Assembly: GCA_020161845.1 (NCBI GenBank)
Contig: JAIUNK010000038.1
Location: 1 to 36,994 of the forward strand
From: Actinomycetota bacterium
GTDB lineage: Bacteria; Actinomycetota; Actinomycetes; Actinomycetales; Dermatophilaceae
Reading direction: 5' to 3'
Length of the DNA: 36,994 bases
The notes beneath the pieces are model-generated. The model was given only the letters and a program-made list of their open reading frames with translations. It made no database searches and was not told the origin of the DNA. This document shows positions 3,598 to 9,199 of the stretch, piece by piece (the stretch's first letter is position 1; every line of letters begins with the position of its first letter). Made by a program: the position numbers and the translations under genes.

Positions 3598-3763
3598 CGG
3601 GCGGGTGCGCGGCCGGCAGGGGGTGTCCGGGAGGGCGCACATGCTATCACCCGGCCTGCGACGGTCCGTGACCGGGCGGTCGTGACCGCCAGCCCTTGTG
3701 CAGGCGCATCCGGATGCGGTTCCATCCCGCGCTGTTTCGTTCGATTCCCGCTGGAGGTTGTCG

Positions 3764-3880
3764 ATGCCGTTCGTTCGCCGCATTCGTCCGATCGCGTTCG
3801 CCCTGGTGCTGTCGGCCCCGCTGCTGGCGTCGGCCCATGCCGCCCTGGCGCAGGACGCCGCGCCGGTCCCGGGCGAAGCC
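3764..3880 (+). CDS. Exported protein, signal-peptide fragment cut at the assembly/recombination joint
   Basis: The ATG at 3764 has a good ribosome binding site (GGAGG, seven bases upstream). It encodes a clear Sec signal peptide: basic MPFVRRIRP, a hydrophobic core with ALVLSAPLLASAHAALA, and an AxA cleavage site before QDAAPVPGE. After about 40 codons the frame enters the start region of an oppositely oriented permease and reads through low-complexity sequence, so the true gene is truncated. The mature protein is not visible and I cannot name the family. An exported peptidase next to ftsY would be plausible in Xanthomonadaceae, but that is only a guess from synteny. Confidence 0.55.
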
Positions 3881-3910
3881 GCCACCGCCAGCGCCGCGAA
3901 CCCGCCGACG
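3875..3910. other. Junction between gammaproteobacterial and actinobacterial DNA
   Basis: Left of this interval all genes belong to a gammaproteobacterial ftsY-mutY-yggX neighbourhood. Right of it all genes are actinobacterial. Two unrelated genes in opposite orientation are both cut here: the exported protein reading rightwards from 3764 and the TauE/SafE permease reading leftwards from 3987. No transposase, integrase or tRNA lies at the joint. The shared stretch near 3888-3908 (rich in GCC and GCG) could be a short microhomology. An assembly chimera is the simplest explanation. Confidence 0.75.
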
Positions 3911-3987
3911 CTGGTCTTCGACAGGCCGATCACGACGGCGGCGAGGGCCAGGACCAGCCCTGGCACGGACAGTGGCTCGACAGGCAC
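3880..3987 (-). CDS. TauE/SafE (TSUP) family permease, N-terminal fragment
   Basis: From a GTG at 3987 with an AGGATAGG ribosome binding site, the minus strand reads 36 residues that form the first membrane helix of the TSUP family. The helix is LVLALAAVVIGLSKTSVGGF followed by AALAVA, with the family hallmark GLSKTSVGG (usually G.SKTG/A.GG). TSUP proteins are anion or sulfur-compound permeases of the cytoplasmic membrane. The reading frame then runs into unrelated sequence at the junction, so at least 85% of the gene is missing. It lies downstream of the EtfD-like gene, from which a strong hairpin separates it. Confidence 0.65.
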
Positions 3988-4082
3988 GGGCCCTATCCTG
4001 CCGCGCCGGCCCACCCGCGCCGGCAGCCCCCGCCCGTCCCGAGGCTGTCATCCTCGTGCAGTGGTCCCGACCGGGGTCGACA

Positions 4083-4138
4083 ACCGCTCGGCGCCCCCCT
4101 CTTCATACCGTGGTATGAGGAAGCGGGCGCCGAGCGGT
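4083..4138. terminator. Long inverted repeat between the EtfD-like gene and the TauE fragment
   Basis: A 13-bp perfect outer stem (ACCGCTCGGCGCC at 4083-4095, complement at 4126-4138) encloses a second perfect stem, TCATACC-GT-GGTATGA (4103-4118). Together they make one near-continuous hairpin of about 27 pairs. It sits 67 bases after the stop of the minus-strand EtfD-like gene and 95 bases before the TauE start, a position suited to a transcription terminator. There is no clear T-tract, as is common in actinobacteria. The inner 16-bp palindrome could also be a protein-binding site. Confidence 0.6.
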
Positions 4139-4204
4139 CGGGTCGGGTGCTGCGGTACGCCGGGTGCTTCGGGTACGCCGGGGGCGGCGGCGCGATCGAC
4201 GCCG

Positions 4205-7200
4205 TTAGCCGCCGAGGATCTTCATGGCCTCGGACGCCGGCATCGTGGTGCGCTCGCCGAGCGCTTCCCGCAGCTTGGCCCACTGGGCGTTGCCCGCAGC
4301 GACCGGGGCAGCGGCCGCAGGTGCTGCAGCAGCCGGCGCCGCCGACCGGGCGGGCACCTGCGCGGGCTCAGCCTTCGCCTCGGGGGCTGGTGTCGGCGCG
4401 GCCTCGGGCTTCGCTGGTGCCTCGGCCTCGGTCGGGGCCGTCGGCGCAGCGGCCGGCGACTTCGACTTCAGCACCGAGGCGAGCTTGACCGGGGCCTTCT
4501 TCGCCGGTGCCGCGGTTGCTTCCGGTGCGGCTGGCTCGGCCTGAGGCGCCGGAGCTGCCGCGGGGGCAGGTGCCGGTGCGGGGGCAGGAGCCGGTGCGGG
4601 GGCAGGAGCTGCCGCGGGCGCCGGTGCGGGGGCAGGAGCTGCCGCGGGCGCCGGTGCGGGAGCGGCCGCCGGGGCCTGGGCGGGGAGACTGCCCAGCACG
4701 GCCATGGCCTCGGACGCCGGGATCATGGTGCGGTCGCCGACCTTCTCGCGCAGAGCCGCCCATGCAGCAGCCCCGCCTGTAGGCGCCGCGACAGCCGGGG
4801 CCGCAGCTGGAGCGGCGGCCGGAGCCGGAGCTGGAGCTGGAGCTGCGGCAGCATCGGGTGCCGGGGCCGGAGCTACGGCGGGCGCAGGGGCCGGAGCCTC
4901 CGCGGCGGGGCCAGGAGCCGGGGCCGGAGCCTCGGCGGCGGGGGCCTCAGCGGCGGTGGCTGCTGGGGGCTGCTCTGGTGCCGCGGCCGGCTCGGCCTTG
5001 GCTGCAGCCGGTGCCGGCGTCGAACCCAACACGGCCAACGCCTCGGACGCGGGCATCGTCTTGCGGTCGCCGAGCTTTTCGCGCACCAGCGCCCAGGCCG
5101 CGGCGCCGGCAGCGCCAGCCGAAGGAGCGGCGGCGGAGACCGGAGCAGCAGTAGGTGCTGGAGCAGGCGGCGCGGTCTCGGGAGCCGCAGCGGCGGGCTC
5201 AGCGGGGGCGCTGGCAGCTGCGGCCGGGGCAGGTGCGGCAGGTTCAGCCGGGGCCGGAGCAGCTGGGGCGGCACCCATCGCGGCGAGCGCTTCCGCGGCC
5301 GACATCTTGCCCTTGGGCATGGTGGCGGCCGTCGCCGGTGCTGGCTGCGCAGCCGGTGTCTCGACCGGCGGCGCGACGGCCTCGGTCGCGTCGGTGTCGC
5401 CGCCCCCGACGGGGGCCTGCGCGGCCTCCTCCTCGGCACGCTCGAGCACGTCCTCGGCGGCCGGCGTGGTCGCCGTGTCGCCCTCGTTGGCCCCGGCCAG
5501 GTCGGCGTCGGTTTCCCCGGCCCGCTTCGACGCCTCGGCCTCGTCCCGGAACTCCCCGGCCGCCGCGGGCGCGGACGCACCCGGCGCCTCATCAAGAGGA
5601 GCCTCGACGACCTCGGCCGCCTCGGCCTTCACGACCTCAGCTGCCTCAACGGGCGCCGGTGCCGGAGCCGCGGCAGGCTCGGGTGCCCGATCGACGGGAG
5701 CGCGCACCGCCGCCAGCAGCATTTGTGCCACGTCGACAACCTCGACCTCGGCGCGCGCCGTACCGTTCTCCTTCTGCGCGTTCAGGCCGTCCGACAACAT
5801 GACCCGGCAGAACGGGCAGCCGATCGCGATCCGCTCGGCGCCGGTAGCGACGGCCTCCGCCGTACGGTTGGCGTTGATCCGTTCGCCGAGCTTCTCCTCC
5901 ATCCACATGCGCGCGCCGCCGGCGCCGCAGCAGAACGACTTTTCCTTGGAACGCGCCATCTCGGAGTACGACACGCCAGGCAGGGCGCCGAGCAGCTCGC
6001 GCGGCGGGGCGTACACGTGGTTGTGCCGGCCCAGGTAGCACGGGTCGTGGTAGGTGACGCTGCGTCCGGTGGAGGCGACGTCCTTGGCCGAGGCCACCTC
6101 GGGCCGGGACACCGGGGTCAGCTTGCGCTCGCGCACCAGCCGGTTGAGCAGCTGGGTGTGGTGGATGACCTCGTAGTTGCCGCCGAACAGCGGGTACTCG
6201 TTCTTCAGCGTGTTCAGGCAGTGCGGGCAGGTCACGACGATCTTGGTCGCCTGGGACTCGTTGAGGATCTCGATGTTCTGTGCGGCCAGCATCTGGAACA
6301 GGATCTCGTTGCCGGCCCGACGCGCCGAGTCACCGGTGCAGGACTCGCCCTCGCCGAGCACGGCGAAGGTGACGCCGGCGGTGTGCAGCAGCTCGGCCAC
6401 GGCGCGTGTGGTCTTCTTGGCGCGGTCTTCGTAGGCCCCGGCGCAGCCCACCCAGAAAAGGTAGTCGACCGACGCGAGCGACTCCACATCGGCGCCGACG
6501 ACGGGTACGTCGAACGGCAGGCCCTTGGCCCAGTCCATCCGATCCTTGGGCGCCATGCCCCACGGGTTGCCCTTGCCCTCCATATTCTTGAACAGGCCAC
6601 CCAGCTCGCCGGGGAAGGCCGATTCGATGAGCACCTGGTGACGGCGCATGTCGATGATGGAGTCGACGTGCTCGATGTCGACGGGGCACTGCTCGACGCA
6701 CGCGCCACACGTCGTACAGCTCCACAGGACGTCGCTGTCGATGATCGCGTCCGGGCCGAGCGCGTCGTACGCCCCGAGCGGGTACTTCTCCTCGTACCCC
6801 GTGGCGCCCACCAGCGGGATCTCCTCGAGCCGCTTGATGTGCTTGGGCTCGTCGTGGCGGGTGTCCTCGCTGGCCAGGATCCACGGCGCCTTCTCGTGCG
6901 CGTGATCGCGCAGGGTCATCACGAGCAGCTTCGGCGACAGGGGCTTGTCGGTGTTCCAGGCCGGACATTGGCTCTGGCAGCGACCGCACTCGGTGCAGGT
7001 GGTGAAGTCCAGCAGCGACTTCCAGGAGAAGTCCTCGGCCTTGCCGGCGCCCATCCGCGGCTCGCTCGGCTCGCCGTCGCCCTCGGGCTCCTCGCCCATC
7101 GCCTCGATGTCGGCCAGCGTCATCGGGGTGCCGGCCGGGGTCAGCATCGGACGGACCGCACCGAGCGCCGTACGGCCGGAGGACTCCCGCTTGAACCAGA

Positions 7201-7981
7201 TGTTGACGAAGGCCAGGAAGCGGTGCCAGGCCACGCCCATGGTGGGTTGGGTGGAGATGACGATCATCCACGCGAAGCTGATCAGGATCTTGAGCATCGC
7301 GAAGATGTAGATGGCCTCGTAGAGCTGCGGCAGTGCCTCCCGGCCCGAGCCCATGTAGCCCCACATGCCGGCCATCCAGCCGGTCAACGGGAAGTGCAGC
7401 AGCATGCTCTCGCCGGGGCTGTCGATCTGCACCATCCGCGCCTCGAGGGAGCGCAGCAGCAGGATCATGATCGTGACGCCGAGGATGGTGGCCTCGACGT
7501 AGTACGCCTGCCACCAGGTCGAGCCGAAGAACCGGCTGCGGCGACCGTGCACGCCGGCGGCCGAGCGCGGGTGGTTGCGTTGCCGGATCACGATCAGCGC
7601 GATGATGCCGACCAGGCCGCCCCAGCCGAGCAGCTCGACCAGCCATTCGAACGGCGGGAAGTGCCCGATGATCGGCAGCCGGAACTCCGGCCAGACCAGC
7701 TGGAAGAACGCGTTGACCAGCGTGGAGAAGAGCACGAAGAAGCTGACGGCCACGAACCAGTGCGCCAGCGACACGATCGGCAGGCGCTTCATCCGGGTGT
7801 GGAACAGGAACTCCTTGATCACGACCCAGGTGCGTTGCAGCGGACGGTCCGTGCGCGTCGGGTCGGCGGTGCCCATCCGGAAGACCTGGGAGTAGGTCCA
7901 CACCCGCCGGAACAGCATGATCCAGCCGAGCGACGGGACGACGAGGCACAGCACGATCGCCGTGATCTGGAGCGCTGACAT
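4205..7981 (-). CDS. EtfD-like membrane Fe-S oxidoreductase with long Ala/Pro-rich repeat tail
   Basis: Numbered from MSALQITAIV at 7981, the protein has 1,258 residues. About six membrane helices (residues 3-245) resemble a NarI/HdrE-type haem membrane domain. Two [4Fe-4S] motifs follow: CTECGRCQSQCP (about 329) and CTTCGACVEQCP (about 422). Then come two CCG-type domains with CPHC (585), DPCYLGRHN (646), SFCCGAGGARMW (682) and GCPFC (721). This layout is that of HdrD/GlpC-like oxidoreductases such as M. tuberculosis EtfD (Rv0338c), which takes electrons from ETF during fatty-acid oxidation. The core ends near residue 760. The last 500 residues are Ala/Pro linkers carrying four copies of a short motif (see the repeat entry). 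The upstream in-frame extension to 8134 lacks homology-like features, so the start at 7981 is preferred. Confidence 0.85.
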   Translation of the reverse strand: MSALQITAIVLCLVVPSLGWIMLFRRVWTYSQVFRMGTADPTRTDRPLQRTWVVIKEFLFHTRMKRLPIVSLAHWFVAVSFFVLFSTLVNAFFQLVWPEFRLPIIGHFPPFEWLVELLGWGGLVGIIALIVIRQRNHPRSAAGVHGRRSRFFGSTWWQAYYVEATILGVTIMILLLRSLEARMVQIDSPGESMLLHFPLTGWMAGMWGYMGSGREALPQLYEAIYIFAMLKILISFAWMIVISTQPTMGVAWHRFLAFVNIWFKRESSGRTALGAVRPMLTPAGTPMTLADIEAMGEEPEGDGEPSEPRMGAGKAEDFSWKSLLDFTTCTECGRCQSQCPAWNTDKPLSPKLLVMTLRDHAHEKAPWILASEDTRHDEPKHIKRLEEIPLVGATGYEEKYPLGAYDALGPDAIIDSDVLWSCTTCGACVEQCPVDIEHVDSIIDMRRHQVLIESAFPGELGGLFKNMEGKGNPWGMAPKDRMDWAKGLPFDVPVVGADVESLASVDYLFWVGCAGAYEDRAKKTTRAVAELLHTAGVTFAVLGEGESCTGDSARRAGNEILFQMLAAQNIEILNESQATKIVVTCPHCLNTLKNEYPLFGGNYEVIHHTQLLNRLVRERKLTPVSRPEVASAKDVASTGRSVTYHDPCYLGRHNHVYAPPRELLGALPGVSYSEMARSKEKSFCCGAGGARMWMEEKLGERINANRTAEAVATGAERIAIGCPFCRVMLSDGLNAQKENGTARAEVEVVDVAQMLLAAVRAPVDRAPEPAAAPAPAPVEAAEVVKAEAAEVVEAPLDEAPGASAPAAAGEFRDEAEASKRAGETDADLAGANEGDTATTPAAEDVLERAEEEAAQAPVGGGDTDATEAVAPPVETPAAQPAPATAATMPKGKMSAAEALAAMGAAPAAPAPAEPAAPAPAAAASAPAEPAAAAPETAPPAPAPTAAPVSAAAPSAGAAGAAAWALVREKLGDRKTMPASEALAVLGSTPAPAAAKAEPAAAPEQPPAATAAEAPAAEAPAPAPGPAAEAPAPAPAVAPAPAPDAAAAPAPAPAPAAAPAAAPAVAAPTGGAAAWAALREKVGDRTMIPASEAMAVLGSLPAQAPAAAPAPAPAAAPAPAPAPAAAPAPAPAPAPAPAPAPAAAPAPQAEPAAPEATAAPAKKAPVKLASVLKSKSPAAAPTAPTEAEAPAKPEAAPTPAPEAKAEPAQVPARSAAPAAAAPAAAAPVAAGNAQWAKLREALGERTTMPASEAMKILGG
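4208..5325 (-). repeat. Protein repeats in the EtfD-like C-terminal tail (one half, three full copies)
   Basis: Three copies of a motif of about 26 residues, W-x2-LRE-x-LG-[DE]-R-x3-PASEA-[LM]-x-[VI]-LG, lie near residues 960-985 (WALVREKLGDRKTMPASEAL), 1071-1097 (WAALREKVGDRTMIPASEAM) and 1231-1257 (WAKLREALGERTTMPASEAM). A shorter copy, GKMSAAEALAAMG, lies near residue 888. They are separated by 85-135 residue linkers made almost only of Ala, Pro, Glu and Thr, like the swinging linkers of acyltransferase E2 subunits. The conserved Trp, LRE and PASEA positions imply a folded two-helix unit. I do not recognise the motif as a named domain. Confidence 0.75.
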
Positions 7982-8272: not shown

Positions 8273-9199
8273 ATGCCCGTCTTCGCCGACGTGACCGCCA
8301 CCGTGGGGCGTACGCCCCTCGTCCGCCTCAACCGCATCGCCCCGGGCGGGGCCACCATCCTCGCCAAGTGCGAGTTCGCGAATCCGGCCGGCTCCGTGAA
8401 GGACCGCATCGGCGTGGCCATCGTCGACGCCGCCGAGGCCTCCGGCGAGCTCCGTCCCGGCGGGACCATCGTCGAGGCGACCAGCGGCAACACCGGCATC
8501 GCCCTGGCGATGGTCGGCGCCGCCCGGGGCTACCGGGTCGTCCTGACCATGCCCGACACGATGAGCACGGAGCGGCGCGCGCTGCTGCGGGCCTTCGGCG
8601 CGGAACTGGAGCTCACCCCGGGCGCCAAGGGCATGCAGGGCGCCGTCGACCGGGCGAACGAGCTCGCCGGGGCTGACAACGCGATCCTGGCCAGCCAGTT
8701 CGCCAACCCGGCCAACCCGAAGATCCACCACGACACCACCGGCGCCGAGATCTGGGCCGACACCGACGGCGTCGTCGACGTGCTGGTCGCGGGCGTGGGC
8801 ACGGGCGGCACGGTGTCCGGGGCCGGGCGCTACCTCAAGGAGCGCAACCCCCAGGTGCGCGTCGTCGCCGTCGAGCCGGCCGAGTCGCCGATCCTGTCGG
8901 GCGGTACGCCGGGGCCGCACAAGATCCAGGGCATGGGCGCCAACTTCATCCCCGAGAACTTCCAGCGCGACGTCGTCGACGAGGTCGTGACCGTCGATGC
9001 GCCGACCGCCGTGGAGTTCGCCCGCAAGGCCGCCACCCAGGAGGGTCTGCTGGTGGGCATCTCCGCCGGGGCCAACCTCGCCGCCGCCGCACGCCTGGCT
9101 GCCCAGCCCGAATACGCCGGCAAGACCATCGTCACCGTCCTGTGCGACACCGGCGAGCGCTACCTGTCCACGATCCTCTTCGAGGGCCTGACCGGCTGA
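8273..9199 (+). CDS. cysK: Cysteine synthase A (O-acetylserine sulfhydrylase)
   Basis: The 308-residue PLP enzyme makes L-cysteine from O-acetylserine and sulfide. The N-terminus has [12 protein letters not shown]. The PLP-binding Lys is in [11 protein letters not shown], the phosphate and substrate loop is [11 protein letters not shown], the second glycine-rich PLP loop is [17 protein letters not shown], and the end carries [12 protein letters not shown]. Length and motifs are those of CysK rather than cystathionine beta-synthase, since no CBS domains are present. It is followed after 71 bases by cysE on the same strand, the common actinobacterial cysK-cysE pair whose products can form the cysteine synthase complex. 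Confidence 0.95.

Follow-up and report, generated by a model that had tools for sequence, protein, structure and literature searches.

Background

EtfD, the electron transfer flavoprotein (ETF):menaquinone oxidoreductase of the CCG type, is best described in mycobacteria, where its C-terminal tail is Pro/Ala-rich, repetitive, and disordered (PMC11567552). A structure paper from 2026, in which conserved repeats interspersed in this tail are attributed to Szekely 2020, reports that Mycobacterium tuberculosis without EtfD does not grow on fatty acids and treats the docking of ETF on EtfD as an open question (PMC13083937). Since the deletion blocks growth of this pathogen on fatty acids, the docking mode of EtfD is of wider relevance. 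In this study, we examined an etfD-like gene of a member of the Dermatophilaceae (assembly GCA_020161845.1, contig JAIUNK010000038.1). The gene lies in a stretch of 36,994 nucleotides, here called the window, and its product continues past the catalytic core with a long Ala/Pro tail carrying repeated units, here called stickers.

The role of EtfD and the disordered repeat tail of the mycobacterial protein are already known, and the turnover of the repeat unit between lineages is new. The literature on EtfD/Rv0338c/IspQ that we searched, with the motif letters not searched and subscription journals mostly uncovered, yielded no tails outside mycobacteria and no units differing between lineages. 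As an explanation, we tentatively favor a tail that acts as a multivalent tether for ETF, with stickers that co-evolve with this partner.

An EtfD with a repeat-bearing tail

The features of the gene are as follows, with positions in the window. The listed scores are from the predicted local distance difference test (pLDDT) of an AlphaFold2 (AF2) model, given for successive blocks.

4205..7981, minus strand: etfD-like gene, 1258 amino acids (aa; open reading frame [ORF] reading, Pfam, alignment to 9ojn, Foldseek)
5705..7981, minus strand: catalytic core, residues 1-759 (alignment to 9ojn, motif positions, ligand list of PMC13083937)
4208..5704, minus strand: tail, residues 760-1258, Ala/Pro/Glu-rich (composition, AF2 pLDDT)
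5273..5314, minus strand: short unit c0, KGKMSAAEALAAMG, residues 890-903 (also in two genus mates and in genome G015)
5024..5095, minus strand: long unit c1, WALVREKLGDRKTMPASEALAVLG, residues 963-986 (profile; AF2 helix-turn-helix, pLDDT 78/79/67)
4691..4762, minus strand: long unit c2, WAALREKVGDRTMIPASEAMAVLG, residues 1074-1097 (profile; AF2 pLDDT 68/77/73)
4211..4282, minus strand: long unit c3, WAKLREALGERTTMPASEAMKILG, C-terminal, residues 1234-1257 (profile; AF2 pLDDT 86/92/89)

The gene is a single open frame that starts with ATG at position 7981 and encodes 1258 residues. An earlier note, made from the letters of the window, had called the product EtfD-like, and this identity was borne out by alignment, fold, and ligands. 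The protein aligned with 9ojn, the cryo-EM structure of Mycobacterium smegmatis EtfD, across residues 3-809 with 645 bits, and an AF2 model of residues 60-1258 matched the same structure in Foldseek at E=6.8e-43. The domain order of EtfD is present, with a membrane region containing the haem histidines H74 and H253, two 4Fe-4S sites, and two CCG domains with cluster ligands. Counterparts of the D1-D4/haem b ligands were assigned via motifs and the 9ojn alignment against the published ligand list (PMC13083937); they comprise C513, C548, C585, H587, C588, C648, C684, C685, C722, and C725, in addition to C329/332/335/339, C422/425/428/432, H74, and H253. By sequence, ligands, and fold, the window gene is therefore an actinomycete EtfD, a membrane iron-sulfur (Fe-S)/haem protein. 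By homology, it would take up electrons from ETF and reduce menaquinone.

Pfam recognized two CCG domains and Fer4, with the last match ending by residue ~730, in line with the claim that a complete core is followed by a repeat tail of about 500 residues. Among the final 503 residues are 203 Ala and 95 Pro (40% and 19%). The long unit follows the pattern W-x2-LRE-x-LG...PASEA...LG, spans 24 residues from W to LG, and occurs in three copies, the last of which stops one residue short of the C terminus. While the three full copies announced by the earlier note were recovered by the profile, its fourth, "partial" copy is instead a separate short unit, since KGKMSAAEALAAMG is without the W/LRE half and recurs in relatives. 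Between the long copies, dN/dS was 0.38, 0.52, and 0.74, values that indicate weak purifying selection, as measured on such short sequences.

The proposal of small folded units on arms agrees with structure prediction. With 50 aligned sequences, the linkers mostly received a pLDDT of ~30-40 (blocks about 29-47), and each long copy is predicted as a helix-turn-helix mini-domain on these low-confidence arms. AF2 on the tail alone, without an alignment, also returned a helix-turn-helix for each copy, weakly (blocks ~48-72, mean 45.7). Low pLDDT and composition together predict a long disordered C-terminal region with repeats. A lone KLASVLKSKSPAA stretch, unlike the repeat units, lies in the last linker (residues 1166-1178).

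The arms of E2 acyltransferases, as in pyruvate dehydrogenase, are Ala/Pro-rich linkers carrying small folded units. The suggested likeness to such swinging arms holds for the Ala/Pro arms but not for the domains, as a Pfam scan found no lipoyl or peripheral subunit-binding domain in the window EtfD or its tail (tail at E<=10). The tail alone matched no Pfam family at E<=10, within the HMMER filters, and the profile of the long unit (PASEA profile) found nothing significant among PDB sequences (best E=0.18). The motif thus has no significant match in Pfam or the PDB. The earlier note knew of no description of it; disordered EtfD tails with repeats are, however, already described in mycobacteria. 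Mimicry of an acyl-CoA dehydrogenase was considered and dropped, the match to 4rm7 (E=0.18) consisting of two pieces with i-Evalues of 32 and 210 and not being significant.

Occurrence of the PASEA unit

The PASEA profile was built from six copies, three from Austwickia and three from the window EtfD, which makes its use on the latter partly circular. In the own genome, the three EtfD copies scored E 1e-18 to 5e-18 and the next row followed at about E=0.2. The two of five rows outside EtfD fell, by eye, in an acetyltransferase-like ORF and an apparent wrong frame, neither of them acyl-CoA dehydrogenase-like. Within this genome, the motif is therefore found solely on the EtfD-like protein. Three genus mates (one of them Austwickia, a source of the profile) contain two to three copies each at E<=2.2e-12; a strongly matching member of the genus is Austwickia sp. 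TVS 96-490-7B (locus L001). The genus mates keep the W and PASEA positions. As the tail has counterparts in three further genomes of this genus, it is not an assembly artefact.

Across 58 genomes (the own one and relatives), the profile matched at E<=0.1 in 19 and at E below 1e-11 in 4, all from the window's genus. Piscicoccus (E=2.9e-4) and G015 (E=0.0016) carry a diverged C-terminal copy on EtfD with short units ahead of it, and in G015 the tail was confirmed to be attached to an EtfD core. When the weak rows were read (21 loci, including the two of the own genome), G015 was the only EtfD tail beyond the genus and Piscicoccus; the remaining rows were, by reading, unrelated or wrong-frame stretches. 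A partial PASEA-like stretch (...RRTMPASEATAKGKAPAVDEATPE / ...LRDGLGRLSARRTMPASEATAKGKAPAVDEATPE, E=0.009) lies near the end of an 883-aa frame of a non-EtfD Piscicoccus protein (L108, G008:C4:59680-59736, minus strand) and is taken as chance.

One tail design with different units

EtfD was found at E<=1e-80 in 132 of 148 genomes of the class. The EtfD ends compared here came from three sources, namely the window, the 80 top hits in GTDB, and 34 regions hand-chosen from the PASEA and EtfD searches; two of the six search peptides for the 80 best hits lie in the tail, and the frequencies below are not population frequencies. An ORF was read at 113 of 115 loci, 7 of them cut by contig ends, which left 106 complete ends. 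The tails of two loci outside this table, L263 (genome G123, core split over two frames) and L274 (G015), were read separately.

The tail proved to be all-or-nothing: 65 of the 106 EtfDs end within 63 aa past the core, 41 continue for 129-684 aa, and none lies between. A unit occurs at least twice in 37 of the 41 long tails and within the last 20 residues in 35 of these 37, a count that is not independent, as the patterns were picked by eye from the same tails (one tail with a masked stretch was scored as without a C-terminal unit). In a pattern-free check that excluded the masked tail, the C-terminal 10-mer resembled an internal stretch above shuffles (p<=0.01) in 19 of 40 tails.

The unit itself differs between relatives. 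DPWD is carried by Knoellia, part of Phycicoccus, and Arsenicicoccus; MSWE by Janibacter massiliensis, with APSWE in J. corallicola; RFGWA by Kytococcus aerolatus; and GSLFD by Nocardioides and kin. A KGLGIAAGAKRPGAKK unit (KGLGIA-GAKRPG, here GLG) is found in genus g58, with variants elsewhere in its family, f22; we take g58 as Mycobacterium, since its tails resemble that of 9ojn. PASEA or its short form occurs in the window's genus, Piscicoccus, Kineosphaera, and G015, and some Phycicoccus (L020, L025, L026) have a tailless EtfD. PASEA is hence one version of a wider pattern, as the EtfD of other relatives either bears another unit or is tailless. With the Mycobacterium profile, the tail of the window EtfD scored E=11 (best domain 49), and no sequence relation between the mycobacterial and the PASEA unit was detected.

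In a tree built from the cores alone (112 rows, L011 left out), the nine tail labels require 11 changes. The PASEA lineage forms one clade (Shimodaira-Hasegawa-like approximate likelihood ratio test, 98), and its sister, Arsenicicoccus, carries DPWD. Core clades include both tailed and tailless members, and units remain recognizable between genera while the linkers vary. That relatives share the tail design with quite different units suggests a tether refitting a changing partner.

Several individual tails stood out. The end of L246 is a variant, GALGFKSGAKAPG, not captured by the pattern, and the tail of L247 (G164) contains runs of GGLKKPGGLKKPG, a simpler second basic repeat, in addition to two KGFGM units. 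Long acidic tails of 310-522 aa without a recognized unit occur in genus g77 (L268, L270, L271), whose relatives carry SLFD, and L253 (G177, family f35) has a 256-residue Ala/Glu/Lys tail without a sticker, its closest sampled relative, L254, being tailless.

Four stickers are private to EtfD in the genomes searched, and one follows the host

Privacy of the sticker was assessed for four units (PASEA, DPWD, GLG, and SLFD). Within EtfD lay 48 of 50 rows of the DPWD search (five whole genomes), 19 of 22 of the GLG search (four), and 37 of 42 of the SLFD search (five). All rows of these three units outside EtfD had an E of 0.3 or worse, and with PASEA included all were at E>=0.19. Being confined to EtfD in the genomes searched, stickers of these four types are no general address common to many proteins.

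Eight genomes of f22 carry a KG[LF]G..G.K.PG-type unit on EtfD cores that fall into two clades. Constraining these GLG cores to one clade lowered the log likelihood by 80 (approximately unbiased test, p=0.0058, LG+G4), while EtfA from the same eight genomes formed a single clade with support of 100/100 (L300 is without an EtfA in this tree). A profile built on 12 g58 units, taken from three tails, recovered the five other f22 tails at best-domain E-values of 2.6e-5 to 1e-3; the best domain in any other of the 49 tails scanned was at 1.1. One sticker on two EtfD cores, together with a single EtfA clade, indicates that this sticker goes with the host, not with the core. This argues against a lid on the core and for a partner in trans, whichever protein that may be.

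ETF as the candidate partner

The most likely partner of the tail is ETF. EtfD of M. tuberculosis co-immunoprecipitates EtfB (PMC8593149), and an AlphaFold3 model docks ETF on the disordered tail of M. smegmatis EtfD (PMC13083937). Recruitment of ETF by the tail is consistent with both and with a sticker that follows the host. A matching tail on ETF was not found: no extension or sticker tracking the tail class is present in EtfA (28 genomes) or EtfB (23 of them).

The C terminus of EtfB belongs to the flavin adenine dinucleotide-bearing half of ETF and would therefore be a sensible contact. Among 69 EtfB sequences, three residues are near-exclusive to the PASEA lineage, L237, D242, and V248, which occur in 7/7 PASEA genomes and in at most 1 of 62 other sequences. 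They cluster within 12 residues near the C terminus (p=0.0047 against random variable sites, post hoc); an earlier count with fewer genomes had given four sites (p=0.0004), of which three were left with more genomes. EtfA has two PASEA near-exclusive residues, H94 and C155 (68 sequences).

A prediction for the EtfB end was then fixed beforehand, and 28 further genomes were read (EtfB remained unread in two loci of the first set and two of the further set); the outcome was mixed. As predicted, SLFD genomes share a distinct EtfB end, DEDGSGA (7/7 new genomes, 10/10 overall), and this end is absent in 3/3 members of g77, whose tails bear no SLFD. The prediction also held in 3/3 members of the DPWD clade that are tailless (L005, L012, and L017, the last by its second ETF locus only). 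In Arsenicicoccus, the EtfB end keeps DEG and has Q in place of K.

Proposed model

In our model, EtfD would take electrons from ETF and hand them to menaquinone, while the tail would be a flexible, cytoplasmic element whose Ala/Pro arms hold several small stickers, one of them at the free end. Each sticker may grip the same soluble partner weakly, most probably ETF via the EtfB end. The tail would thereby enrich ETF, a protein that must visit many acyl-CoA dehydrogenases as well, near the CCG/Fe-S entry site, and no tight and stationary complex would be needed. The sticker would be the replaceable part, with lineages having their own version kept in step with the partner. The cytoplasmic tether, ETF as its partner, the contact at the EtfB C terminus, and the gain in electron transfer are points that we infer. 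A more specific form of the model, a system of sticker swaps with at least six versions of the unit, each matched to the local ETF at the EtfB C terminus, so that ETF would reach the respiratory chain by a tail that is repeatedly rewired yet stays multivalent, is possible and somewhat less probable than the tether as such.

Several observations weigh against the tether model. ETF was not seen on purified EtfD in the structure paper (PMC13083937), and since many EtfDs are tailless, the tail is not needed for catalysis. At the EtfB end, tailless Kribbella carry the SLFD-type sequence in 3/3 cases, contrary to the prediction, and the DPWD, GLG, MSWE, and FGWA lineages retain the common end although their stickers differ strongly. 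The density of class-specific columns in EtfA and EtfB does not clearly exceed that in the EtfD core (EtfA/EtfB/EtfD core: 0.6%, 1.5%, and 1.0% for PASEA; 1.3%, 0.4%, and 1.3% for DPWD). The net charge of EtfA lies between -1 and -7 in the 7 DPWD genomes, the remaining 21 having -7 to -15, and it does not cleanly track sticker charge, with acidic-sticker Janibacter at -11. In 21/40 tails, the C-terminal 10-mer does not pass the pattern-free test (p>0.01), and no repeated unit was found by patterns in 4/41 long tails (L253, L268, L270, and L271). The two-core result of f22 comes from a simple model with long branches, and its group was named with knowledge of the first tree; the whole-sequence score lifts two of the five other f22 tails (3.5e-8 and 7.7e-5), the other three being negative (E=49). 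Finally, the single EtfA clade does not single out ETF, as any vertically inherited protein would behave alike.

Alternative explanations

The alternative that survives best, and that we regard as rather unlikely, is multivalent recruitment of another partner, such as an acyl-CoA dehydrogenase, a polar or membrane scaffold, or a protease adaptor, with the stickers serving as private addresses. A sticker that follows the host and not the core would fit any host factor, and EtfD of M. tuberculosis pulled down 49 proteins, 41 of them from membrane or cell wall (PMC8593149). The best PDB match of the PASEA profile is indeed an acyl-CoA dehydrogenase, but in two pieces and without significance (E=0.18). 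The same sticker is found on no other protein in the genomes searched and thus points to no shared receptor, and the published model favors ETF.

Self-association is unlikely to a greater degree. Here, units of neighboring EtfDs would bind each other and gather the enzyme into membrane patches or condensates as a sticker-and-spacer array. Repeated units with low-complexity spacers, a sticker at the free end, and the high AF2 confidence of the C-terminal unit would suit such an array, and self-binding stickers could drift freely, which would explain their turnover without a partner. However, the short DPWD and SLFD forms, of 4-6 residues, seem too small for effective self-binding, and one sticker on two core lineages within one family is less expected.

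That the tails are products of low-complexity drift, growing by slippage in GC-rich Ala/Pro sequence with passenger repeats of no function, seems very improbable. Their Ala/Pro composition, their variable length, and their loss or absence in many lineages would fit, but units stay recognizable across genera while linkers differ, the dN/dS of the copies is below 1, a C-terminal unit is present in 35/37 repeat-bearing tails, no tails of 64-128 aa exist among the 106, and the same unit sits on two EtfD cores. Least probable of all is an intramolecular lid, in which the C-terminal unit docks on its own core and gates access of ETF or quinone, as the last unit, with its high pLDDT behind a linker of low confidence, might suggest: the same sticker occurs on two divergent cores, core clades are both tailed and tailless, and several copies would be unneeded.

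Gene context and assembly

The window EtfD gene stands beside cysK (8273-9199, plus strand), with no ETF gene recognized adjacent to it. A long antisense ORF opposite the EtfD gene (3698-7978, plus strand) is probably a GC-rich shadow. The own genome carries ETF genes, and a single ETF alpha gene, with no second, was found in each of the three genus mates. A second EtfD, tail-less and 48% identical to the window core, lies on contig C38 of the own assembly in the following cluster.

G000:C38, about 38500-42600: etfB-etfA-etfD-acyl-CoA dehydrogenase cluster (loci L242, L160; EtfB by eye)

This gene order strengthens the connection of EtfD with ETF. The best C38 relatives among 118 sampled genomes are 59% identical and lie outside the window's family, and no match at E<=1e-230 was found in the three other members of that family sampled, so C38 may have been acquired or may be a contaminant.

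The left end of the window differs from the rest. The FtsY gene at 2455-~3600 (minus strand) is merely 49-51% identical to FtsY of the genus mates, and another FtsY lies on contig C59 of the own assembly, which has 4.39 Mb and 4.4% contamination (3.5-3.6 Mb in the three genus mates). Window positions 1-~4000 look foreign and the contig looks chimeric, with the junction to the left of the EtfD stop at 4205. By eye, a truncated TauE/SafE-like start lies near 3700-4010.

Comparison with known systems

The closest described protein is mycobacterial EtfD (Rv0338c/MSMEG_0690, 9ojn), which shares with the window protein the core, the ligands, and a long, disordered C terminus with repeats (PMC13083937). 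It differs in its basic KGLGIAAGAKRPGAKK-type unit, in place of which the window EtfD has the 24-residue W...PASEA unit, predicted to be folded. FadF of Bacillus subtilis and DgcB of Pseudomonas aeruginosa are EtfD homologues as well and suggested electron acceptors of ETF, but their disordered tail is reported to be short or absent (under 3 kDa) and the D1 cluster ligands to be lacking (PMC13083937).

Natural sticker variants on one conserved enzyme would make the question of ETF docking directly testable. We know of no report of phase separation of an EtfD tail, for which no search was made. Pyrenoid linkers, by comparison, contain repeated Rubisco-binding motifs, with the motif also at C termini. 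Such linkers (EPYC1 and relatives) resemble the EtfD tails in being disordered and little conserved between species, and they condense Rubisco (PMC11570498). They are unrelated in sequence, and the window tail is, in contrast, fused to a membrane redox enzyme. If the tether model is true, EtfD would be a case from a bacterial respiratory chain of multivalent tethering with motif turnover, as in pyrenoid linkers.

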